IMG/VR virus record: IMGVR_UViG_3300021335_001443
Span: 1 to 33,950 of that record
Strand: one strand, 5' to 3'
Source of the DNA: a virus
Length of the DNA: 33,950 nucleotides
Positions 12,882 through 24,731 of the stretch are shown in pieces. The position numbers and the translations under genes are program-made. The notes beneath the pieces are model-generated. The model was not told the DNA's origin and searched no databases. It saw only the letters and a program-made list of their open reading frames with translations. Each line of letters starts with the position of its first letter. Within the stretch, counting starts at the first letter, position 1.

Positions 12882-13578
12882 AAAGTACGGCAGAGACTGG
12901 AAGATAAAAGCCAAAAATATTGGTGATGTTTTTGCATGTATTGAAGCCAATAAACCATCTTTTAGACGGGATATGATTGAATTTGCTGAATCTGGTGGTG
13001 ATATATCTATACAGTGTGGCGATACTTTTATAGAAGATGAAGAGGAGCTACTTTATTCTATTGGGCCTGATGACATTATTATTACTCCTCTACCTGCTGG
13101 TGCTAAGGGTGGTGCATCTAAGCTACTTATGGCAGCATTAATTGTTGGTAGCTTTTTTCTTCCCGGCTCTGCTGCTCTTCTAACAACCGCTACTGGTATA
13201 GGAGGTGGTGCTGCTGTAGGGAGTGCTGCTTCTGTTATGGCTGTAGGAGGTATTGGCGCTCTAAATATAGGCGGACTTTTGTTAGCAGGTGTAGCTACAG
13301 GTCTAGCTATGCAGGGATTAGGAGCAATGCTAGCACCCGATCCTTCTGTAGATGGTGTAGAAGCAAACGATGAATATCTTTTTGATACGCCACAAAATAC
13401 TATTGCACAAAACAATATTGTTCCAGTACTGTTTGGAGAGATGATTGTTGGTGGTGTTATAATTTCAACAGCTACAGTTGCTGGGTACAATCGACCCATA
13501 ACAGGAGGCTATGCTTATGGTACTACTGTAGGTGGTGGAATAGGTACAATGTATGGAGTGACGGAGGAAGTTCGATGA
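12847..13578 (+). CDS. Tail assembly protein, lambda gpI-like
   Basis: 243 residues. The first 80 have the ubiquitin-like fold of gpI (VVLNGFLGEKYGRDWKIKAKNIGDVFACIEANK ... GPDDIIITPLPAG, paraphrased span 4-84). Next comes a hydrophobic, Ala/Gly-rich region (about 90-165) with segments such as LLMAALIVGSFFLPGSAALL that could cross a membrane or wrap the tape measure end. The C-terminus has the family phrase NNIVPVLFGEMIVGGVIIS. gpI acts with J, K and L in building the tail tip and is thought not to remain, or to remain in low copy, in the virion. Position between K and J homologues supports the call. Confidence 0.85.
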   Translation: MKEVVLNGFLGEKYGRDWKIKAKNIGDVFACIEANKPSFRRDMIEFAESGGDISIQCGDTFIEDEEELLYSIGPDDIIITPLPAGAKGGASKLLMAALIVGSFFLPGSAALLTTATGIGGGAAVGSAASVMAVGGIGALNIGGLLLAGVATGLAMQGLGAMLAPDPSVDGVEANDEYLFDTPQNTIAQNNIVPVLFGEMIVGGVIISTATVAGYNRPITGGYAYGTTVGGGIGTMYGVTEEVR

Positions 13579-16500
13579 AAATTAATGGTAGTAATAATAA
13601 CACAGGTATTGTATACGATCTTATTAGTGAGGGTCCTATTACTCTTGTTAATGGCTTAAATTCAATTTATTTAAATCGTACACCGCTTGCTAATACAACC
13701 AGTGATGTTGCTCTTCTTAAAGAAAAACTAACAGGAACTGTTACAGCTTCTAGAACCGGCATCACTTTTCTAGACAACCAAGACAGCACAGTACTACAAA
13801 GAGGTAACTCAGATAATAATAAAGTACTAGTTCATCGTGGGGGAGCGCAAGCAACAGTTTCTACAATTACTGCTGTTGCTGGAGAAAACCAATCTACTAT
13901 TGTAACATCTACCTCATTTTTTACAGATGCAATGCTTACACCCAATGGAGAAGGCTCTCTTACAGAAAAAATACGAATTCCTGGGTATGGCTTAGATGGG
14001 GCAGATTATGTAGGAACACTTTTTAGTAGAGCAAGTGGCACATCTGCTGTAGTTACTCCTAAGGTTCCTAAAACTGATGGTACACCTACTATTTATTTTG
14101 ACTATTATACTACAGCTTCGACCACAAAATCTAGAGCTGGAACAATAGATGTATACCAAGTTGGTTTTGGTGACGCTATTCCTAACTCTGCTTTGGCAAG
14201 TTCTACAGCAGAAATAAGCATTTTAGGTTCTTTAGAGTCTAACTTAACAGCAGGAAAAGATGCCCTTAACTTTGAGGGGGTAAAAGCTGCTTTTGTACCA
14301 GGTACTAGGGATCAGGCGCCTCAGTCTTCTGTACCTGCTATTTCTGCTGCAACAGCAACTACTAAAGTAGACACAACTCTTAAACAGCATACAGACTTTT
14401 TTGGTGCCCCAACAAAGCTACAAAACTTTTGGGGTAAGTATAAACTAGAGTATCCAGATGGTGCTACGGGAGGAGGCGTAGTTACAGTAAACGCTGCTGA
14501 TCTTGCTTCAGGAGATTATGGTGCTATTGACGAGCTGATCTTAACACTATCTTTTCCTAGTGGTTTATATACTAGTGGTGTTGAAGGTGCATATAAAGAA
14601 CAGTATGGAGCAGTTTTTCAAGTTTTCTTTGATTATAGTTTGGGAGGTAATACTAAAACTGTGCAAGTGTTTGGACCAACTGCTTCAGAAATCAGTCAGG
14701 CATCTATACTAGTTGCAGCAAATACAGGTACATTTAGAAAAGGTGGACCCACAGTAAGCGGTGAACTAGTTTCAAATAGTGAAACAAATATTGATTTTGA
14801 TCTACGTTTTTCTATTGAACAGTATAAACCTTTTAGTAACTTTGCTATACGAATTAAAAAAGTAACTCCAGATCGTTTGCTTTATCGTGGAGGAGTTTCA
14901 AATTATATTGCTGATAGCACTGTAAAGCAGGTAACAACAATTATTAATGATAAGCTTTCTTATCCTCATTCTGCCTATGCCGCTCTTTCTTTTGATAGTA
15001 ACCAGCTAAATGGAGAATTTCCAGAAAGAGCTTACCATTGTAGAGGTGTAGAAGTTTCTGTTCCTACTAACTATGTTACACGAGAAGAAGCTAGCGACGG
15101 TGTAGCAAACTACAATCGAAATGTTAGTACTGGAGTTATCGAATCCTCTTATCAAGTTTGGGATGGTAACTTACGCAGAGCCTATACTAATAATCCTGTT
15201 TGGAATCTAAGAGAAATACTTATCAATAAAAGGTGGGGCTTAGGACACTGGCTTGACCCAGATAATATAAATGATTACTCGTTATATTCTCTAGCAAGAT
15301 ATTGCGATCAGCTTGTACCAGATGGTAAAGGAGGACTAGAGCCAAGATTTACTTGCGGGGTATACCTTACACAACCAACAGAAGCCTATAAAGTAATTAA
15401 AGATTTTTGTAGTATTATGTTTGCGCTACCATACTGGGTAGATGGCCAGTTTATCTTAGAAGGCGATAGGAGAGGAGAACCTGTCTATACGTTTACAAAA
15501 GGAAATGTTATAGATGGCTTGTTCTCTTACGAAGGCACAGGAAACAAGACACGCCCCAATCAAATTGTGGTAAGGTTTAATGATAGAGATAATTTTTATG
15601 ATCAAGACATAGAATTAGTAGACGATATTGAAGATATGATTACTAAAAATCGCATCTTTAGTCAAGAAGTTGTAGCCTTTGGAGCAACATCTAGATCGCA
15701 GGCAATTAGATATGGTAAGTGGAAACTACTAACGTCTAAGATGCAAAAAGAGATAGTTTCTTTTAGAACAGGAGAAAATGCCGGATTCCTAAAGCCAGGG
15801 AGTATTATTGCTGTACAAGATGCGGATAGAACGGCTGTTCGTAACTCTGGTAGAATAGTAAGCTCAACAACAACAAGCGTTACACTTGATAGTAGTGTTA
15901 CTCTTGCTTCGGGAGAAACACATTATATCTATGTTCAAGTTGATGGAGCAGCTACTTATCTTGCTCAAGACTCTGCAACAATAAGTAGTGTAGCTTACGA
16001 AAGAGGAGATATTATTGCTGGAGTTACTACAGAGACAGCAGCCGAGACTTTAGTAGATGATAGTGGAGAGCCTGTAATCGTACAATTTGTTCCTGACACT
16101 CACCTAGAAAAAAGAGAAATTAATGAAACTCTTCCTTTTACAGGTAGCACAGTTGACGTCAGTACAGCATTTACTGCGGCTCCCGAAACAGAGTTTATTT
16201 GGGCTATAATTTCTACTAGAGATGATCTATTGGTAGATGGCAGCGCTAAAAGCTATAAAGTATTAGGCATTGCAGAAGAATCTCCAGGAGTTTATGCAAT
16301 TACTGCAGCAGAACACTATAATGCAAAGTTTGATATACTAGATGAAGACTATCTTTCAGACGTTCCTAGCCAAGTACCTCGCTATGCAGACGTACCTCCT
16401 GTAACAAACTTTACTTCTTTGTTAAAAAAGACGTTTGTATCGGACTCGGCTGCCTCTCAAACAGTACAAATTGTACTACGATGGAGTAGTCCTAAAAATG

Positions 16501-17792
16501 TAGATCAAACAAATTTTGAAGATTTTGCAGGGTACCGTATAAAGCATACTGACCCAGAAGGAGAAGTAGAAACCACAGATATCTCTTCTAGCGCTACATC
16601 GTACTCAGTTAGAACTTCTTTTGCAGGAACTCATACTTTTGTTATTCAAGCTGTCTCTGGCTATGGTCCTGTTTCTAAGCCCGTTCAAACAAACATATAT
16701 GTTGGAGATATAGCAACAGGCACAGTACAGTATAAAAATAGTGTGCCTAGCGGTGGTGTAATTTCCGTTCCAGTAAGACTAGAAACAGATACCCTTATTA
16801 TCCCTAGTGTCTATGAGTTTACTTCTGCTTCTGGTAAAAAAGTTTTTGTTGGTCCAGATACCCCTACCGACCCTACTGAAGGTGCGATTTGGTACAACAC
16901 TACAACAGGCAACCAAAATATCGGCTCTGCTGGAACTGATCCACCTTCTTGGGGAGAAGAAGATCAGGAAGGTGATACTATTAGCGTAGAGGATACTACA
17001 GTAGCAACTTCTGTCACAGTAGATAATGTAGGTACTACAGCTACTGCATCTATTACATTTAATACAGATGGTACGGTAGACCTTGCTAGAAGTCATGGTG
17101 TAACTTCCGAGCTAGATGTCTATGACTGGGTTATTCCTAACAACCCTACAAAAACTTATCATATTAGAGCAACACAAGTCTCGGCTCCTACAGGAACAGG
17201 TACAGCAACTGGAACTATTGGTAGCTGGTTGCAGCTAAATAGCAATAGAAGCTTTGGTCTTTCAGATACACAAAGTGCCGGTAGTTCTGGTTCTTCTACA
17301 TCTCAATATACTATTGAAATTAGTGATGATGGGGGCACAACAACCATTGACTCAGGGACAGTAACCTTTTCTACCACAATTACAAACGTATCAGAAACTA
17401 TTACCTTAACTGGTGGTAACATATTTGACTGGACTTCAGATACTACTAGTACCCTCACGACACAGTTAGTTATTACTAATGCAGGACTAGTTTATGCTAA
17501 TCAAATGAGCGGTGGTACAACTAACTTTACAAACTGGATTGATCCCGTATCTGCTGCTGGATCAAATTATGAGGTAAGATTCACTTCTACAGGAACAGGT
17601 CCAAATACTGGCGCTTCTACAGGAACATGGCTTAGCCTAGGTACAACAAGGGCCTGGGGTTATCAGTCTTCTGGTATAGTTTCAGTTACAGGTACATGGC
17701 AGTTAGAAGTCAGAGAAGTTGCTACCCCAGCTAATACTAGTGGAGTAGAAGATTTCCCTGTTAATATTACAAGAGAAAATCTTGAGTTCTAA
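13575..17792 (+). CDS. Tail tip attachment / host specificity protein, lambda gpJ-like
   Basis: 1405 residues; the central tip protein that contacts the receptor. It begins with the J signature YDLISEGPITLVNGLNSIYL. The J core (about 540-720) contains WNLREILINKRWGLGHWLD, the segment YCDQLVPDGKGG and PYWVDGQFILEGDRRGEPVY. A fibronectin type III domain follows at about 940-1045 (VTNF ... VQIVLRWSSP ... FAGYRIKHTD ... HTFVIQAVSGYG). The C-terminal 275 residues are Ser/Thr/Gly-rich beta structure with two similar units, probably the receptor-binding end. Start overlaps the I-like stop (ATGA) and has GGAGGAA in front. The C-terminal part is expected to vary most between relatives. Confidence 0.93.
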   Translation: MKINGSNNNTGIVYDLISEGPITLVNGLNSIYLNRTPLANTTSDVALLKEKLTGTVTASRTGITFLDNQDSTVLQRGNSDNNKVLVHRGGAQATVSTITAVAGENQSTIVTSTSFFTDAMLTPNGEGSLTEKIRIPGYGLDGADYVGTLFSRASGTSAVVTPKVPKTDGTPTIYFDYYTTASTTKSRAGTIDVYQVGFGDAIPNSALASSTAEISILGSLESNLTAGKDALNFEGVKAAFVPGTRDQAPQSSVPAISAATATTKVDTTLKQHTDFFGAPTKLQNFWGKYKLEYPDGATGGGVVTVNAADLASGDYGAIDELILTLSFPSGLYTSGVEGAYKEQYGAVFQVFFDYSLGGNTKTVQVFGPTASEISQASILVAANTGTFRKGGPTVSGELVSNSETNIDFDLRFSIEQYKPFSNFAIRIKKVTPDRLLYRGGVSNYIADSTVKQVTTIINDKLSYPHSAYAALSFDSNQLNGEFPERAYHCRGVEVSVPTNYVTREEASDGVANYNRNVSTGVIESSYQVWDGNLRRAYTNNPVWNLREILINKRWGLGHWLDPDNINDYSLYSLARYCDQLVPDGKGGLEPRFTCGVYLTQPTEAYKVIKDFCSIMFALPYWVDGQFILEGDRRGEPVYTFTKGNVIDGLFSYEGTGNKTRPNQIVVRFNDRDNFYDQDIELVDDIEDMITKNRIFSQEVVAFGATSRSQAIRYGKWKLLTSKMQKEIVSFRTGENAGFLKPGSIIAVQDADRTAVRNSGRIVSSTTTSVTLDSSVTLASGETHYIYVQVDGAATYLAQDSATISSVAYERGDIIAGVTTETAAETLVDDSGEPVIVQFVPDTHLEKREINETLPFTGSTVDVSTAFTAAPETEFIWAIISTRDDLLVDGSAKSYKVLGIAEESPGVYAITAAEHYNAKFDILDEDYLSDVPSQVPRYADVPPVTNFTSLLKKTFVSDSAASQTVQIVLRWSSPKNVDQTNFEDFAGYRIKHTDPEGEVETTDISSSATSYSVRTSFAGTHTFVIQAVSGYGPVSKPVQTNIYVGDIATGTVQYKNSVPSGGVISVPVRLETDTLIIPSVYEFTSASGKKVFVGPDTPTDPTEGAIWYNTTTGNQNIGSAGTDPPSWGEEDQEGDTISVEDTTVATSVTVDNVGTTATASITFNTDGTVDLARSHGVTSELDVYDWVIPNNPTKTYHIRATQVSAPTGTGTATGTIGSWLQLNSNRSFGLSDTQSAGSSGSSTSQYTIEISDDGGTTTIDSGTVTFSTTITNVSETITLTGGNIFDWTSDTTSTLTTQLVITNAGLVYANQMSGGTTNFTNWIDPVSAAGSNYEVRFTSTGTGPNTGASTGTWLSLGTTRAWGYQSSGIVSVTGTWQLEVREVATPANTSGVEDFPVNITRENLEF
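17052..17775 (+). repeat. Two diverged tandem beta domains at the C-terminus of the J-like protein
   Basis: Protein-level repeat at about residues 1160-1265 and 1297-1400 of the tip protein. Matching points in order: ITFNTDGTV / VITNAGLVY, DVYDWVIPNNP / NFTNWIDPVSA, YHIRATQVSAPTGTGT / YEVRFTSTGTGPNTGA, GSWLQLNSNRSFGL / GTWLSLGTTRAWGY, YTIEISD / WQLEVRE. The DNA is too diverged for a simple DNA repeat. Confidence 0.6.
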
Positions 17793-18845: not shown

Positions 18846-19282
18846 CAATAAAAGGAACCTTAATAAATGCTGTGGCAGGAACCCTACCTAGAGCTACAGC
18901 ACCTACCTATGCTGGAAATACTTTTACTTTAACGGTTGGTCAAGATGACCCAAAAACTCCTACTCTTTTTGGATATAGTCGATCTAATGCTTTTGGTTCT
19001 ATATCTCCAACTACGCAGTTTCTAGACATATATGGAACAGATACACATCAAGTAGATAGCTTATTTAAGAGTACTACTAGTAATACCTTAACTTTTGCAA
19101 TTAGTGGTACAGCAACAGTAACAAATAGTGTATGGACCTCAATAACTGTTCCTATAAGTGGTACTACAACTACATTAAATAGGGCAGATGCCTCTTATAC
19201 AAATGTAGGAGGTACTGGAGGCCAGTGGATTTGGTCATCCTTTACTTCTACATTAGCAAATGGAACCGTAACTTTAGCTTAG
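18842..19282 (+). CDS. Small tail tip-associated protein, hypothetical
   Basis: 146 residues from GTG at 18842, chosen because AGGAG ends seven bases before it and because GTGA overlaps the previous stop; the longer reading would begin inside the upstream gene with a poor start. Ser/Thr/Gly-rich and probably all-beta (NTFTLTVGQDDPKTPTLFGY, TLTFAISGTATVTNSVWTSI). TLFGYSRSNAFGSISPT-type phrases occur in small proteins next to J genes in other siphoviruses, but I cannot assign a named family. Likely a virion component with the two genes before it. Confidence 0.55.
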   Translation: MTIKGTLINAVAGTLPRATAPTYAGNTFTLTVGQDDPKTPTLFGYSRSNAFGSISPTTQFLDIYGTDTHQVDSLFKSTTSNTLTFAISGTATVTNSVWTSITVPISGTTTTLNRADASYTNVGGTGGQWIWSSFTSTLANGTVTLA

Positions 19283-19290
19283 GACTAATT

Positions 19291-19800
19291 ATGACTTTTA
19301 TAATTAATAAAATTAATACCAGGGAAGAGTTAGATACTCTAGTAAATATTGAGCACTTATTTGAACAAAGTGAATCTTACATTGATGAGCATGCTCAATT
19401 ACCCCCGCATATTCTTAGTAGAGAAGAAAAGTTTTCTTATGTAAAAAATATTTTTGCAGACTGCTGTGCTCGTGAAAAGTGGTTTATTTATCACGTTAAA
19501 CAATCTGACACGGATTTACTGCTTATGTTAGCAAGGGTACTAGATAGTACTACATGGCAGTATGAATTTAGTCTTCTTAGTCCAAATAAAGCAGGGTCAA
19601 GATCGTGGATATATGAGAAAGAGTTTACAGATAAAATGAATGCTTTTAGAGACTCTTATGGAATTATAAATATTGCTGTTAGAGACTGGAAAACTGGAAC
19701 TTCTAAAAACTACTTTAAAAAACAATTCAAGATGGATTTAGAGGTAGATAAAAAATCTGAAGACACTTTGACTCAAACCCACTCGAAAAAGATTAAATAA
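19291..19800 (+). CDS. Hypothetical protein at the end of the late operon
   Basis: 169 residues from the ATG at 19291; the frame extends back into the previous gene but that part reads as an out-of-frame shadow. Unlike the beta-rich tail proteins before it, this looks like a soluble mixed alpha/beta enzyme-like protein: acidic helical N-terminus, then DCCAREKWFIYHVKQSDTDL, WQYEFSLLSPNKAGSRSWIY and DSYGIINIAV, ending in a charged tail. The strand-loop-helix pattern around 95-135 faintly recalls GNAT acyltransferases, without a recognisable acetyl-CoA loop. It could also be a fibre chaperone, given its position. No ribosome site better than weak AGGA is seen. Confident as a gene, unknown function. 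Confidence 0.5.
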   Translation: MTFIINKINTREELDTLVNIEHLFEQSESYIDEHAQLPPHILSREEKFSYVKNIFADCCAREKWFIYHVKQSDTDLLLMLARVLDSTTWQYEFSLLSPNKAGSRSWIYEKEFTDKMNAFRDSYGIINIAVRDWKTGTSKNYFKKQFKMDLEVDKKSEDTLTQTHSKKIK

Positions 19801-19823
19801 AAACCCGGAACTTACGTTCCGGG
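19794..19823 (-). terminator. Intrinsic terminator of the minus-strand operon
   Basis: CCCGGAAC (19804-19811) and GTTCCGGG (19816-19823) form a perfect 8-bp stem. Read on the minus strand it is followed by TTTTTATTT, a good U-tract. The four-base loop (19812-19815) contains the stop codon of the methyltransferase gene, so coding and termination signals are fused. On the plus strand no T-run follows. Confidence 0.8.
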
Positions 19824-20396
19824 CCAGTTAAACTCTTGTATATTTCCATTAAATCCTTGATAGTTATATCCAGGAGGAAACCAAGGTGATAGCTTTTCTA
19901 TATCACCATAATCATAATGTAAAGCCGGCAGCGTAAAGTTGTCGGCTTTTGCTATTACAGATATATTATATCCATATTGCTTGATACTACAGTCGGTACA
20001 ATTATATCCTGCTAGAATAAGATTGTACATTACTAGTCCTGCGTTCCAAAGCGTAACATGGCCGCCGACAATATCATGTTTTAGTGGTGGAACAGTAATA
20101 CAAATAAGACCACCAGGCTCTTGCAAAGATCGACACTTTTGTAGGAAAGCATTTACATTTAGCTGGTGCTCCAAGACATGCGATGCCCAGATAAGATCAA
20201 AGCTATGACCAAAGCCTGCATACATAAAGTCACCCTCAACAAGATTAGGGGCACCTTTATCTACAATATCGCTAGACGTTACACCTTTACCCCAGGAAGC
20301 AAAAATATGTCCAGCAGCACCAGTACCAGCACCTACGTCTAATACTGTAGTAAATTCTCTTGCTTTTAGAGCATTTATTGCTTCGTTTCCGAACAT
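19812..20396 (-). CDS. SAM-dependent methyltransferase, class I
   Basis: 194 residues with the Rossmann-like methyltransferase core: motif I VLDVGAGTGAAGH at about 18-30, an acidic strand end near 41-44 (SSDIVDKG), motif with LVEGDF, then FDLIWASHVLEHQLN at about 66-80 and CRSLQEPGGLICITVPP, the layout of the methyltransferase type 11/12 group. The LEH motif is typical of small-molecule or glycan/lipid methyltransferases rather than DNA methylases; no NPPY or PC motif is present. It is last in the minus operon and overlaps the transferase gene before it by 22 bases; GGAAG lies before the ATG. Substrate unknown; the neighbouring transferase suggests a sugar or cell-envelope compound. Confidence 0.8.
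   Translation of the reverse strand: MFGNEAINALKAREFTTVLDVGAGTGAAGHIFASWGKGVTSSDIVDKGAPNLVEGDFMYAGFGHSFDLIWASHVLEHQLNVNAFLQKCRSLQEPGGLICITVPPLKHDIVGGHVTLWNAGLVMYNLILAGYNCTDCSIKQYGYNISVIAKADNFTLPALHYDYGDIEKLSPWFPPGYNYQGFNGNIQEFNWPGT
19921..19950 (+). terminator. Candidate plus-strand terminator inside the opposing methyltransferase gene
   Basis: AAAGCCGGCA (19921-19930) pairs with TGTCGGCTTT (19940-19949), ten pairs with one G-U, a nine-base loop, and T to 19950. The A-stem-T form is that of bidirectional intrinsic terminators. It lies 120 bases past the last plus-strand gene and would stop late transcripts after the convergence point. The T-run is short (four), so efficiency is uncertain. 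Confidence 0.4.
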
Positions 20397-21385
20397 AACT
20401 CTTCCAATCTATTAAAGGTACTAGCATAATTATGACACTGGTATTTTGTACAATACCAAGTTAACCATTCATCTGCTTTTTGCGGATTCCACCAAGAAGT
20501 GTCATCAATATAACTTTGTAGCATATTAAGATGTCTAAGGTCTTTGGTAATCCAATGATATTCTGGTAATCCGTAGCTAATCATAGGAATCTTGTGCATT
20601 AAACATTCTATTCCTGCTGTAGTATTTTCTACAATAGCTATATTTGTTTTTGGTAAAATATCATGAAGACTTTCTTGATCTTCATAAATTGTTACACCTT
20701 CAGTTCTCCACTGTAATAACATTCTATTAAAGTCAGGCCATTTGCCTGCTTTAGTAATAACAGGCTTAAAAGTAGGATGAAGTTTTAATACTACAGTATT
20801 TCTATCTTTGAGATAATTTACTATAGACTGTAGTTTAAGCCAATGATTACCAAAACTAAAGCCATTAACTGTTTCATCTCCAGGCATCTGACCTATTACT
20901 AAGATATGGTCTTCTGGCAAATCTACTGTTGCACAGTCAAAAATAACTTCTCCAGTAACTGTCCATTTATGTTCTCTTTTTGCTAGTAAGCTATTTACAA
21001 CACTATTAAAGAAGGCTTTAGTTTTTATACCTTCAAAGTTTGGCTTCTCATATGCAATCGAGGAGGAACAAGCATAGCCAAGAGGGTCAATAGTAAAGTA
21101 ATTTGAGGCAGGAGCAGTTGGCTTAATAAAAAAAGTTTTTGTTCCTGTAGGCAGCCTATCTTTCTTTACTTGGTCAAGGTAGGTGTGGTTGTACACATAT
21201 ATAGCCTCATCACTATGATCAAAACCAACTTCAGCAAACTCAGGTACTTCTTCTAACTGTAACTCTGGATCAAGATGAACAGTGTATCCTAGCTCTCTAA
21301 ATGCTTTTATAACGTGGTTATAGGCATCAGACCACTGCAAGGTTAGCTTATTGTATCTTTTTCCGTATAAATTAACTACCTTCAT
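20375..21385 (-). CDS. Capsule-polysaccharide-synthesis-like transferase
   Basis: 336 residues from the ATG at 21385; an upstream in-frame start at 21424 is less likely since it lies deeper in the preceding gene. Two-domain GT-B-like outline. The C-terminal half has a strand VVLKLHPTF followed by a linker, then VTIYEDQESLHDILPKTNIA, ENTTAGIECLMHKIPMISYG and EYHWITKDL. That LHP ... N-S/T-x-G-x-E ... K-P ... Y/F-G order is characteristic of capsule synthesis (KpsS/KpsC-like) and CDP-glycerol-type transferases. In a phage it might modify a host surface glycan, a virion protein or DNA. The protein is translated with the oxygenase (overlap 14 bases) and methyltransferase. Confidence 0.55.
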   Translation of the reverse strand: MKVVNLYGKRYNKLTLQWSDAYNHVIKAFRELGYTVHLDPELQLEEVPEFAEVGFDHSDEAIYVYNHTYLDQVKKDRLPTGTKTFFIKPTAPASNYFTIDPLGYACSSSIAYEKPNFEGIKTKAFFNSVVNSLLAKREHKWTVTGEVIFDCATVDLPEDHILVIGQMPGDETVNGFSFGNHWLKLQSIVNYLKDRNTVVLKLHPTFKPVITKAGKWPDFNRMLLQWRTEGVTIYEDQESLHDILPKTNIAIVENTTAGIECLMHKIPMISYGLPEYHWITKDLRHLNMLQSYIDDTSWWNPQKADEWLTWYCTKYQCHNYASTFNRLEELCSETKQ

Positions 21386-22013
21386 TATACCACCCACTAA
21401 TTGCAATACGAGGGTAAGGAACATACTGACTTACTTCGCTAACAAAGTGAGGTATTCCTGCCCCGTTTTTTAATCCTAACAATACAAAACTATTATATAC
21501 TGGAGGTATAGCTTTTATCTCATTATCTATTTTTATGTGTAGCATACCACCATACTCAGGTTTCCAACCAGCGGTTAAGTTTAGTATAAAAGCTACACCA
21601 CGATTTGCGTCTGTGTGCATACTTAGGAAATCTCCTGACTCATATACACTAACAAAAGACTCAAAAAGCTGAGGATTTTTTAGTCCTGTTTCTTGTGAAA
21701 TAAACTGTTTAAAATCCTCAGATTCTAGTGTATTTTTTCTAAACTCACATTCTACACAGTTACAAGTTTCTGTATGTTTTGTACTTCTTTTAAACTTATA
21801 AGTAAACGACCCTGCAAGAAAGCTATCCACTATGTTAGGCTGTGCCTCCCGTAGTCTTTGTCTTTCTCGCAGGGTGTTCTTATAGTATCGTGCAGTATCT
21901 AACTTTTCGTGTGCAACTGCATACGACCACCAATGCTCAGGTATTTCCATAAGGCCAGTGCTTAATTCGTATGCTTCTTTGGCTGCTAAAAAATTATTAA
22001 ATACTTTTATCAT
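21372..22013 (-). CDS. 2-oxoglutarate/Fe(II)-dependent oxygenase, prolyl 4-hydroxylase-like
   Basis: 213 residues. The double-stranded beta helix core has the metal and cosubstrate residues in order: H133-T-D135 (SMHTDANRG), GGMLHI, H189 (GIPHFVSEV) and R202 in PRIAISGWY. All needed residues are present, so it should bind iron and 2-oxoglutarate and hydroxylate a substrate. Ahead of the core is a Cys-rich knot: H80, C84, C86 and C89 (HTETCNCVECEF), possibly a small zinc site and not usual in this family. Such oxygenases are frequent in marine phages; substrates are mostly unknown. Start ATG overlaps the NrdB stop as TAATG. Confidence 0.85.
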   Translation of the reverse strand: MIKVFNNFLAAKEAYELSTGLMEIPEHWWSYAVAHEKLDTARYYKNTLRERQRLREAQPNIVDSFLAGSFTYKFKRSTKHTETCNCVECEFRKNTLESEDFKQFISQETGLKNPQLFESFVSVYESGDFLSMHTDANRGVAFILNLTAGWKPEYGGMLHIKIDNEIKAIPPVYNSFVLLGLKNGAGIPHFVSEVSQYVPYPRIAISGWYNEGS

Positions 22014-22963
22014 TAGAAAATGTCGTCCCAGTTTCCGGTTGTCGCTGCTTTAGCATATTCTGTAGGTCTATTCTCAAAGAAGTTGGTATGTTCAACTGCG
22101 TTAATCATAGCATCAATCCAAGGTAGTGGATTTTTTTCTGCCTTGAAAATATTTTTAAGACCTAACTGATTTAGCCTGCGACCTGCAATATATCGAATAT
22201 ATTCTTTAACTTCTTCTGGTCGGAGATTCTCTAGTTCACCACCCTCAAAACAAAGGTCGATGAAAGCATCTTCTAGCTGTACAATTCTCTCAGCAATCGA
22301 GTAAAGCTGAGACTTAAGTGTGTCCGTCCAAAGACTTGGATTTTCTTCAATATAGGTACGGAACATCTGAGTCATTCCTTCAACGTGCAGGTTCTCGTCT
22401 CGGATAGACCAAGATACAATCTGTCCCATATTTTTCATCTTACCGTGCCTTGGAAAGTTTAGCAAGATTGCAAAAGAAGAAAATAGCTGCACACCTTCTG
22501 TAAAGCCACTATATACTGCCAGAGACTTAGCAATGTCAGCAGGTGTATCCATAGTAAAGTTTTCTAGATACTCATGTTTATCTGCCATTGCTTTATACTT
22601 ACTGAACATCTTGTATTCATCATCAGATAGACCAAGTGTCTCAATAAGAAGAGAGTACGCTTCAATATGCGTAGCCTCCATACTAGCAAATGCTGCCATC
22701 ATCATGCGAAGCTCTGGCGCTTTAAATGTTGGCAAATAGTGCTGGCAATAACCACCAGCAACATCTACATCTGCTTGTGTAAAGAATCTAAAAATCTGTG
22801 TAATTAGCTTTTTAGTATATGGATCAAACTCATTGTAGTCTGAAATATCTTCTGCGAGTGGCACCTCTTCGGGATGCCACTCCATTTTCTTTTGGGCTTT
22901 GTAGTGTTCAAACGCCCAAGGGTATTCAAAAGGTTTATAGTAGTCTCTCGTTTCTGTTAGCAT
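22013..22963 (-). CDS. nrdB: Ribonucleoside-diphosphate reductase, class I beta subunit
   Basis: 316 residues from the ATG at 22963, chosen over an upstream GTG because GAGGG in the last codons of nrdA sits seven bases before it. Makes the radical used for reducing ribonucleotides. All dinuclear metal ligands are visible: D65, E96 and H99 (EATHIEAY), E156 (GFTEGVQ), E190 and H193 (RDENLH). The radical tyrosine is Y103, seven residues after E96 as in E. coli NrdB (E115/Y122), and the second pair spacing of 34 residues is also the same. The C-terminus ends WDDIF, expected to dock on NrdA. One base separates it from nrdA. Confidence 0.95.
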   Translation of the reverse strand: MLTETRDYYKPFEYPWAFEHYKAQKKMEWHPEEVPLAEDISDYNEFDPYTKKLITQIFRFFTQADVDVAGGYCQHYLPTFKAPELRMMMAAFASMEATHIEAYSLLIETLGLSDDEYKMFSKYKAMADKHEYLENFTMDTPADIAKSLAVYSGFTEGVQLFSSFAILLNFPRHGKMKNMGQIVSWSIRDENLHVEGMTQMFRTYIEENPSLWTDTLKSQLYSIAERIVQLEDAFIDLCFEGGELENLRPEEVKEYIRYIAGRRLNQLGLKNIFKAEKNPLPWIDAMINAVEHTNFFENRPTEYAKAATTGNWDDIF

Positions 22964-22964
22964 T

Positions 22965-24731
22965 TTATCCCTCACATGCTAGGCACTCTTCTTCATTCTC
23001 GCTGAAGTTGAAGTTATAGCGCTCTGTTTTCTTAGAAAGATCGTCTGATCGTTTGAAGGCTTCGGAGCGCAAGTAATATAGTGTTTTAACACCTTCTTTC
23101 CATGCAAGCATATGAACTTCATGAAGCTCTTTTTTGCCTACGTCGGCTGGAAAGAATAAGTTTACAGATTGTGACTGGCAGATATATGGCTGTCTATCTG
23201 CTGCATGAACTACTACCCACTCTTGCCCAATTTCAATAGCCGTCTTAAAGACATCCTTAATATGGTCAGGCAGGTCAAGATGAGAAATACTTCCTCGATT
23301 AGAAACTATACTAGCCCACACTTCATCAGTGTTCATTTTATATACATCCAAAACTTTTTCAAGATGAGGATTTCGGAAGGTATGGGTGCCGGTCAAAGTT
23401 TTTTGATTAAACGTATTTGCCCGATACGGTTCGATTCCCGGAGACGTATTTCCGCAGATAATGCTGCTAGAAGCGTTCGGAGCGATTGCCAATAGGTGTG
23501 CATTACGAACCTGGTCGTGACCCTTGGCATCTGGACATGGTCCTCTTTCCTCGGCAAGAATTTTTGTTTCTTGCAACGCTGCACGTTTGATGTGCTTAAA
23601 GATTGCCTTATTTACAGTTCTAGCAACATCACTTTGAAAAGCAATTCCTTTTGACTGTAAGTAGGCGTGGAATCCCATTGCTCCGAGTCCGATGGATCTT
23701 TCACGATGGGCGGAATAGACTGCTTTATATAGCTGGTCTGGAGCTGTTTTAATAAATACATCCAAGGTATTATCAAGCATCCTAATAAGATCAGGAATAA
23801 ATTGTTCATTGTTTTTCCATTCGTCAAACTTTTCCAGATTGACCGAGGATAGACAACATACTGCTGTTCTGTCGGTATCTGTGGGGAGTGTAATCTCAGA
23901 ACAAAGGTTTGACTGAGATACTGTAAGACCTAACCTGCGTTGATAATCGGGAAGATGGTCGTTTACAGTATCTCCCCACATAATATATGGTTCACCCGTC
24001 TCATGACGGTTTTGGATAATTTTAATCCACAGTGCCTTAGCCGACACCGTTTTAGTAACCTCATTTGTGTGAGGATCAATTAGCTGCCAAGAGTCATCGT
24101 AGGTTTTATCTACGGTGGCTTTTTCAATGATACGCATAAACTTATCAGAGATAACGATGCCGTGATGTATATTTACGCATTTACGGTTAGCATCTCCAGT
24201 TGGTTTACGAATATCAAGGAACTCTTCAATTTCAGGATGGCTAATGTCTAGGTAGGCTGCATTAGACCCACGACGAGTTACACCCTGCGAAAAAGCAAGC
24301 ATCATACTGTCACTTACTTTTACAAAAGGTACAACACCTGTAGACTCAGAGCCTCTAGATGTTTTTGTACCTTTAGACCTTACTGCACCCCAGTAAGTAC
24401 CAATGCCTCCACCTACACTAGAAAGAAAAGCATCTTCGGTAAAGATCTCTGTAATACCTTCACGACTATCATCAACATAGTTTAGAAAGCAAGAGATAGG
24501 CAGACCCCGACTAGTGCCGCCGTTGGAAAGTAGAGGAGTAGCAAACATAAACCACTGCTGAGAAGCATAGTCATAAATGCGTTGAGCATGAGCCTCATCG
24601 TCAGCAAAAGCCTTAGCAGCCCTAGCATACGCATCTTGTGGGCTTCTTTCTTCTGGTAGCATATAGCGATCCCGAAGTGTCTGCTTTGCAAACTCTCCAA
24701 TTAGTGCATCTCTGTTATAATCAATTTTCAT
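22965..24731 (-). CDS. nrdA: Ribonucleoside-diphosphate reductase, class I alpha subunit, without ATP-cone
   Basis: 588 residues, against about 760 in E. coli. Reduces ribonucleotides to supply deoxynucleotides for phage DNA. Active-site residues in order: C81 (PISCFLN), N275, C277 and E279 (NLCSEI), C292 (partner of C81), the radical-transfer pair Y552-Y553, and the C-terminal shuttle cysteines C583-x2-C586. The protein begins about where the catalytic core begins, so the N-terminal ATP-cone that switches activity off with dATP is missing. The substrate-specificity site region is present. AAGGA precedes the ATG. No thioredoxin or glutaredoxin is in the window, so host reductants are presumably used. 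Confidence 0.96.
   Translation of the reverse strand: MKIDYNRDALIGEFAKQTLRDRYMLPEERSPQDAYARAAKAFADDEAHAQRIYDYASQQWFMFATPLLSNGGTSRGLPISCFLNYVDDSREGITEIFTEDAFLSSVGGGIGTYWGAVRSKGTKTSRGSESTGVVPFVKVSDSMMLAFSQGVTRRGSNAAYLDISHPEIEEFLDIRKPTGDANRKCVNIHHGIVISDKFMRIIEKATVDKTYDDSWQLIDPHTNEVTKTVSAKALWIKIIQNRHETGEPYIMWGDTVNDHLPDYQRRLGLTVSQSNLCSEITLPTDTDRTAVCCLSSVNLEKFDEWKNNEQFIPDLIRMLDNTLDVFIKTAPDQLYKAVYSAHRERSIGLGAMGFHAYLQSKGIAFQSDVARTVNKAIFKHIKRAALQETKILAEERGPCPDAKGHDQVRNAHLLAIAPNASSSIICGNTSPGIEPYRANTFNQKTLTGTHTFRNPHLEKVLDVYKMNTDEVWASIVSNRGSISHLDLPDHIKDVFKTAIEIGQEWVVVHAADRQPYICQSQSVNLFFPADVGKKELHEVHMLAWKEGVKTLYYLRSEAFKRSDDLSKKTERYNFNFSENEEECLACEG

Follow-up and report, generated by a model that had tools for sequence, protein, structure and literature searches.

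Three overlapping genes at the end of an nrd operon, here called OXY (oxygenase), CAP (capsule-like transferase) and MT (methyltransferase), belong to a marine-phage gene pool whose products, on balance, probably carry out post-translational modification of a tail or fibre protein of the phage's own virion, by hydroxylation, addition of a CMP-activated ulosonic sugar and O-methylation. The enzyme classes, the active-site motifs and the adjacency to collagen genes can be read from the sequences, and since the same genes lie directly behind collagen-like tail-fibre genes in relatives, hydroxylation and glycosylation of the phage's own fibre are suggested. At the level of the gene families, such modification is well supported by context.

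Organization of the gene cluster

The stretch analysed (the window) is an entire IMG/VR virus record of 33,950 bases; as the record carries no completeness estimate, it may be a fragment. The positions of the genes are listed in Table 1. The nrdB/OXY junction is TAATG, and the overlaps are 14 nt between OXY and CAP and 22 nt between CAP and MT. With all three ORFs intact and a terminator present, the arrangement reported in the initial annotation, an overlapping trio that follows nrdB and closes the operon, was upheld. The start of CAP is the ATG at 21385; an upstream start listed at 21424 is not common to the homologs. Because homologs of OXY, CAP and MT were found at 33–70% identity, the three are taken to be real genes. 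The trio lies within the replication operon and probably has early expression, and nrdB itself probably stands outside the proposed pathway. Weak matches to the window's nrdA-nrdB region came from 62 phage records, among which Pelagibacter phages are numerous. The tail module ends with a 191-aa ORF (19225–19800) that matched nothing in Pfam or PHROG and whose true start may be an internal ATG.

Table 1. Genes and sequence features of the window, with positions, strand and supporting matches
Feature	Position	Strand	Description	Evidence
Central tail protein	13575-17792	+	1405 aa, candidate target	BLASTP to L019 tail protein
Intrinsic terminator	19825-19802	-	GC-rich hairpin, 10-bp stem with 6 GC pairs, followed by T run	
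MT	19812-20396	-	Class I SAM-dependent methyltransferase, 194 aa	PF13489 3e-10, PF08241 7e-9
CAP	20375-21385	-	KpsC-like GT-B transferase (Capsule_synth), 336 aa	PF05159 4e-5, above gathering
CAP KXHP motif, K201-L-H-P204	20774-20785	-	Predicted CMP-binding site	17/17 homologs
CAP QXXXD motif, Q166-MPG-D170	20876-20890	-	Predicted catalytic nucleophile	17/17 homologs
OXY	21372-22013	-	Prolyl-hydroxylase-type 2OG-Fe(II) oxygenase, 213 aa	PF13661 (2OG-FeII_Oxy_4) 5e-14
OXY R202	21408-21410	-	Partner of HxD motif	
OXY H189	21447-21449	-	Partner of HxD motif	
OXY HxD motif, H133-x-D135	21609-21617	-	Iron-binding motif	Invariant in 18/18 homologs; aligns with OGFOD1 HxD
OXY H80-C84-C86-C89	21747-21776	-	HxxxCxCxxC cluster	18/18 homologs
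nrdB	22013-22975	-	Upstream operon neighbour (context)	PF00268 2.7e-71

OXY resembles prolyl hydroxylases

The assignment of OXY to the oxygenases was borne out by its Pfam match, its HxD...H...R site and its prolyl-hydroxylase fold, the HxD...H iron triad and the 2OG-binding Arg being kept in all 18 homologs. A profile of these homologs matched, among PDB sequences, human OGFOD1 (3.9e-21), Streptomyces PolD (1e-6), Pseudomonas PPHD (2.7e-4) and a P4H (0.0027). The AlphaFold2 model (pLDDT 95) gave Foldseek matches to PPHD, PHD2, OGFOD1 and Tpa1, and the top 50 were all prolyl hydroxylases except PolD. By profile and fold OXY is closest to the prolyl hydroxylases (OGFOD1, PPHD, PHD2), and proline hydroxylation itself is predicted. 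OGFOD1, which has the same HXD...H triad, acts on uS12 as a prolyl 3-hydroxylase (PMC4396695). OXY shares fold, HxD...H...R site and profile similarity with OGFOD1/Tpa1 and PPHD but differs from them in an invariant HxxxCxCxxC insert. This Cys/His cluster, already noticed in the initial annotation, has no counterpart in the aligned OGFOD1 and is a possible zinc knuckle; it may recognise a substrate, as suggested there. Moreover, the OXY family adjoins phage tail genes, whereas OGFOD1/Tpa1 and PPHD are tied to ribosomal proteins or EF-Tu. The P4H of the virus PBCV-1, cited in PMC9301287, belongs to the same set of nearest known enzymes. OXY was matched weakly by phrog_274 and phrog_19810, two PHROG families whose label, DNA endonuclease V, may be mistaken where 2OG oxygenases are concerned.

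CAP and MT

In CAP, GQxxxD and KxHP are kept in 17 of 17 homologs. Structure prediction, named in the initial annotation as a check on its capsule-like transferase, agreed with it: the AlphaFold2 model (pLDDT 88.6) has a KpsC-like GT-B fold, with Foldseek matches to WaaG, KpsC and WbbB. The match to KpsC (6mgc) had E=3e-8 and a TM of 0.54, whereas WaaG, which is not a Kdo transferase, ranked slightly above KpsC by E-value with a lower TM. In retaining Kdo transferases QXXXD is the nucleophile motif and the HP motif, occurring as (K/R)XHP in GT99 and GT107, binds CMP (PMC10148158, PMC12887879). Like KpsC (GT107) and WbbB (GT99), both retaining beta-Kdo transferases, CAP combines a GT-B fold with QXXXD and KXHP. 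Unlike them, it is phage-borne and its acceptor is probably a protein; it found no match among PDB sequences even at E=10, the identity in the fold alignments is 11–16%, and against the KpsS equivalog model (NF050054) it scored 16.4 bits for a cut-off of 600.

Since CAP carries both QXXXD and KXHP, a CMP-ulosonate donor is predicted; these KpsC-type CMP-sugar motifs speak against the transfer of a polyol-phosphate unit, which had also been envisaged. Gram-negative hosts supply CMP-Kdo, made for LPS, and Kdo is therefore the simplest donor sugar; the donor could be Kdo, the most likely candidate, or another CMP-ulosonate. Single-sequence searches of phage records with CAP and MT, and of IMG/VR with CAP, returned nothing, relatives of CAP being reachable only by profile searches. 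In bacterial genomes CAP had one match, on a contig binned as planctomycete (L289, NHBP01000001.1). This contig, probably viral, also carries nrdB-like, exonuclease-like and DUF6445-like genes.

MT matched Methyltransf_23/11 of Pfam, consistent with the class assigned initially; it is a generic class I enzyme of no specific family and adjoins CAP or OXY-CAP in relatives.

Gene neighbourhoods of the relatives

Profile and sequence scans of IMG/VR yielded, counting those of the window, 19 distinct sequences of OXY, 17 of CAP and 14 of MT. Their contexts were as follows: i) OXY follows nrdB without CAP or MT in L001 and L013–L016, and three nrd-linked OXY contigs (G001, G002 and G004) have Gly-X-Y proteins nearby; ii) the six non-nrd OXY lineages (L009, L017, L018, L019, L020/21 and L022) all have the gene in a tail operon, 0–4 genes behind a tail protein that has 85–124 collagen triplets, and usually overlapping CAP; iii) CAP lies closely behind a collagen tail protein without OXY in L032, L039, L040, L043 and L044, so that hydroxylation by OXY is no general prerequisite; iv) CAP-MT occurs in replication modules (L050, L052–L055), for the most part where no collagen is visible, and contig G001 (46.9 kb) has CAP-MT in the replication module and OXY and collagens elsewhere; v) the trio follows nrdB in the window and in L031, where the order nrdA-nrdB-OXY-CAP-MT also shows overlaps; and vi) in L019 collagen-MT-OXY-CAP form one tightly packed operon. 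In all, ten CAP lineages lie closely behind collagen-like tail-protein genes, and the distant myovirus OXYs (L023–L030) are mostly without nearby collagen.

In the trees, nrd-linked OXYs nest among collagen-linked OXYs. Between the window and L031, NrdB is 94% identical but OXY, CAP and MT only 52, 63 and 70%, indicating that divergence or exchange is faster in the trio than in the adjoining genes; a close relative, L293, has genes for 203 and 93 aa in the slot and no trio. Co-occurrence over phage genomes, named in the initial annotation as a check, gave a divided answer: the linkage is far from random, yet OXY or CAP may stand alone and the pairs OXY-CAP and CAP-MT are found too. The three genes are associated without forming a fixed unit.

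A double break marks most of the collagens

The collagens beside CAP contain a double break in the Gly-X-Y register, GT[T/E]PG recurring exactly 22 residues on. It was found in the collagens of L009, L017, L019, L020, L022, L032, L039, L040, L043 and L044 and in most of L063–L139, frequently in the central part of that domain, and may act as a hinge or recognition site. Scanning DNA for this pattern gave 80 loci, each in a collagen frame; 37 of them had at least 700 nt downstream, and as 14 of the 37 are near-duplicates, about 23 cases are independent. In 36 of the 37 the genes after the collagen are OXY/CAP or an unrelated oxygenase-like gene that usually has a glycosyltransferase with it: 12 loci have OXY/CAP/MT, 24 a DUF6445 protein (nearly always with GT2), and the one other locus, L125, has a different oxygenase-like gene. 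Part of the 12 are not independent, the scan having also recovered the families that defined the motif, whereas the 24 DUF6445 cases are. Judged by HxD/H/R-like motifs, DUF6445 may be a family of 2OG oxygenases and the L125 protein is a putative oxygenase; some related proteins carry a 2OG-oxygenase annotation in cyanophages.

At L125 (13178–14149) the collagen gene is followed by that for the 227-aa oxygenase-like protein and by a carbamoyltransferase-like fragment, and L070 (6413–7887) and similar myovirus loci have DUF6445 and GT2 behind collagen genes. The DUF6445 gene of L100 (3429–3979) is broken into two frames of 111 and 102 aa, apparently by a frameshift or an error of assembly.

Control collagens were collected with a palindromic GPx pattern (GGNCC), which does not give a random sample, and filtered to collagen frames of at least 30 triplets. 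Among the matches listed, none of the 75 control collagens had the double break and none had OXY or CAP; DUF6445 was present at four of these loci. The 93 proteins downstream of the listed controls included, by Pfam, six 2OG-FeII_Oxy_3, two DUF6445 and three Glycos_transf_1 matches, so that phage collagens outside the motif class can have oxygenases beside them as well. Because the double break also precedes DUF6445-GT2, it was no longer regarded as a site specific to CAP.

Enzyme type and collagen residues

In the OXY-linked collagens Pro is abundant at X and Lys almost absent, and lysyl hydroxylation by OXY was ruled out on the latter ground. The L043 collagen has Lys at 80 of 150 Y positions. 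Across such loci the class of enzyme tracks the residues offered by the collagen, which would be unexpected for genes acting on host metabolism. Behind the Lys-rich L043 collagen tail protein (L043:3159–6584) are CAP, a 618-aa LH3-like protein with GT25, GT_PLOD and 2OG-oxygenase domains, and an FkbM methyltransferase. Two cultured phages, the Synechococcus phage S-CAM9 (L165, 890–9746) and the Roseobacter phage CRP-6 (L166, 6140–9752), have genes for collagen fibres rich in Lys at Y (repeats GQKGEKG, GAKGQKG), followed by homologs of the L043 protein, GT25+GT_PLOD proteins of lysyl-hydroxylase/glycosyltransferase type annotated as hypothetical; in S-CAM9 two 2OG oxygenases lie between the collagen fibre gene(s) and the GT25+GT_PLOD protein.

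Proposed pathway and candidate target in the window

The pathway, whose substrate, sugar donor, sequence of reactions and advantage are all deduced from comparison, would run as follows. In relatives the enzymes would act on the collagen-like Gly-X-Y domain of a tail protein whose gene lies immediately upstream; OXY would hydroxylate proline, for which the X-position prolines of GPQ/GPT/GPA triplets are abundant candidates; CAP would attach an ulosonic sugar, most likely Kdo, from its CMP-activated form, either to the hydroxyl so created or to threonine; and MT would O-methylate the added sugar. The fibre might gain stability, shielding or altered adsorption. A series of hydroxylation, transfer and methylation had been proposed in the initial annotation and agrees with the enzyme classes. 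Of the targets offered there, a virion protein is the best supported, through the collagen-like tail fibre of the relatives; phage DNA fits poorly, as OXY groups with prolyl hydroxylases and not with nucleobase oxygenases.

For the window itself modification of the phage's own fibre is a weaker reading, because the fragment has no collagen, the operon is of early type and L293 lacks the trio. Residues 12–1088 of the window's tail protein are homologous to the collagen-bearing tail protein of L019 (33% identity, 4e-164, BLASTP), but the L019 collagen domain lies beyond the homologous part; a collagen domain was looked for in the 1405-aa protein and not found, nor is there a Gly-X-Y run in the 33.95 kb of the window, where the tail module is apparently complete though the record may be a fragment. 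The trio would then act on a tail protein that lacks Gly-X-Y repeats, or on a collagen whose gene lies beyond the fragment.

We also consider, tentatively and as something short of an even chance, a more general scheme in which interchangeable hydroxylases (OGFOD1-like, DUF6445, LH3-like) and transferases (KpsC-like, GT2, GT25/PLOD) make up a widespread modular collagen-maturation system of marine tailed phages around the conserved double break, the window trio adding methylated Kdo to hydroxyproline or threonine and having moved to another tail substrate.

Alternative explanations

OXY may instead hydroxylate a host translation protein, uS12 or EF-Tu, with CAP-MT as independent cargo. Its closest solved relatives do act on uS12 (OGFOD1) and EF-Tu (PPHD), the trio sits in an early-type operon, and L001–L016 carry OXY without CAP or MT. 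Yet six lineages have OXY in a late tail operon behind collagen, mostly overlapping CAP, and unrelated oxygenase-like genes occupy the same place in other phages, so that we regard this as unlikely. About equally improbable is a role at the host surface, in which CAP would decorate LPS or capsule with Kdo or a comparable sugar and MT would cap that sugar, blocking superinfection, with OXY incidental; the KpsC/KpsS-type fold and motifs of CAP and the CAP-MT pairs without adjoining OXY in replication modules (L050, L052–L055) would fit. An early surface enzyme, however, has no reason to track fibre genes as the ten CAP lineages do, and behind collagen genes other transferases replace CAP.

A different view is that the region between nrdB and the tail module is a variable cargo slot and that the three genes share no pathway. 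The 203-aa and 93-aa genes found there in L293, the solitary OXY of L001–L016 and the separate location of CAP-MT in G001 favour it, but the same three families come together in unrelated places, in the tail operon of L019 and after nrdB in L031, and we consider it quite unlikely. Oxygenation followed by glycosyl transfer is known for phage and trypanosome DNA, and this logic, with the placement after nrdAB, could point to DNA hypermodification tied to the adjoining nucleotide-metabolism genes. This we judge very improbable: OXY falls among prolyl hydroxylases, CAP is of the CMP-sugar type, homologs lie in tail operons away from nrd, and profile and fold comparisons of OXY and CAP revealed neither a nucleobase oxygenase nor a base-specific transferase.

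Relation to known systems and significance

Mimivirus modifies its virus-encoded collagen-like proteins with a virus-encoded hydroxylase and glycosyltransferase, L230 (PMC9614988). Both L230 and animal PLOD3/LH3 resemble the cassette, as interpreted here, in pairing a hydroxylase with a glycosyltransferase for collagen-like proteins. However, L230 is a single lysyl-hydroxylase/glucosyltransferase protein of a giant virus, whereas the phage cassette consists of separate prolyl-hydroxylase-type, KpsC-type and methyltransferase genes; closer in design to LH3 are the GT25+GT_PLOD proteins of L043, S-CAM9 and CRP-6. Adjacency of the enzyme genes to a collagen-like structural gene, as in systems of the L230/LH3 type, is seen in relatives but not in the window.

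The use of viral prolyl hydroxylases has been called cryptic (PMC9301287), and phage 2OG oxygenases have been described as not specifically investigated (PMC9602691). Earlier proposals for marine-phage 2OG-Fe(II) oxygenases concerned nitrogen/2OG signalling or DNA repair (PMC3037559, PMC11288001); OXY shares superfamily and habitat with these auxiliary metabolic genes, but fibre modification is proposed here. A phage collagen hydroxylase-transferase cassette was not found described in the open-access literature searched, and its novelty is provisional.

Should the pathway be correct, it predicts Kdo on a protein, of which we know no description. 2OG-Fe(II) oxygenases are among the commonest marine-phage genes without an assigned role and are usually filed under host metabolism or DNA repair; the neighbourhood evidence points to a concrete substrate for one group of them, the phage's own collagen-like fibre, and the cultured phages S-CAM9, CRP-6 and DSL-LC02 are suited to testing it. 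If true, bacterial viruses would hydroxylate and glycosylate collagen with enzymes partly unrelated to those of animals.
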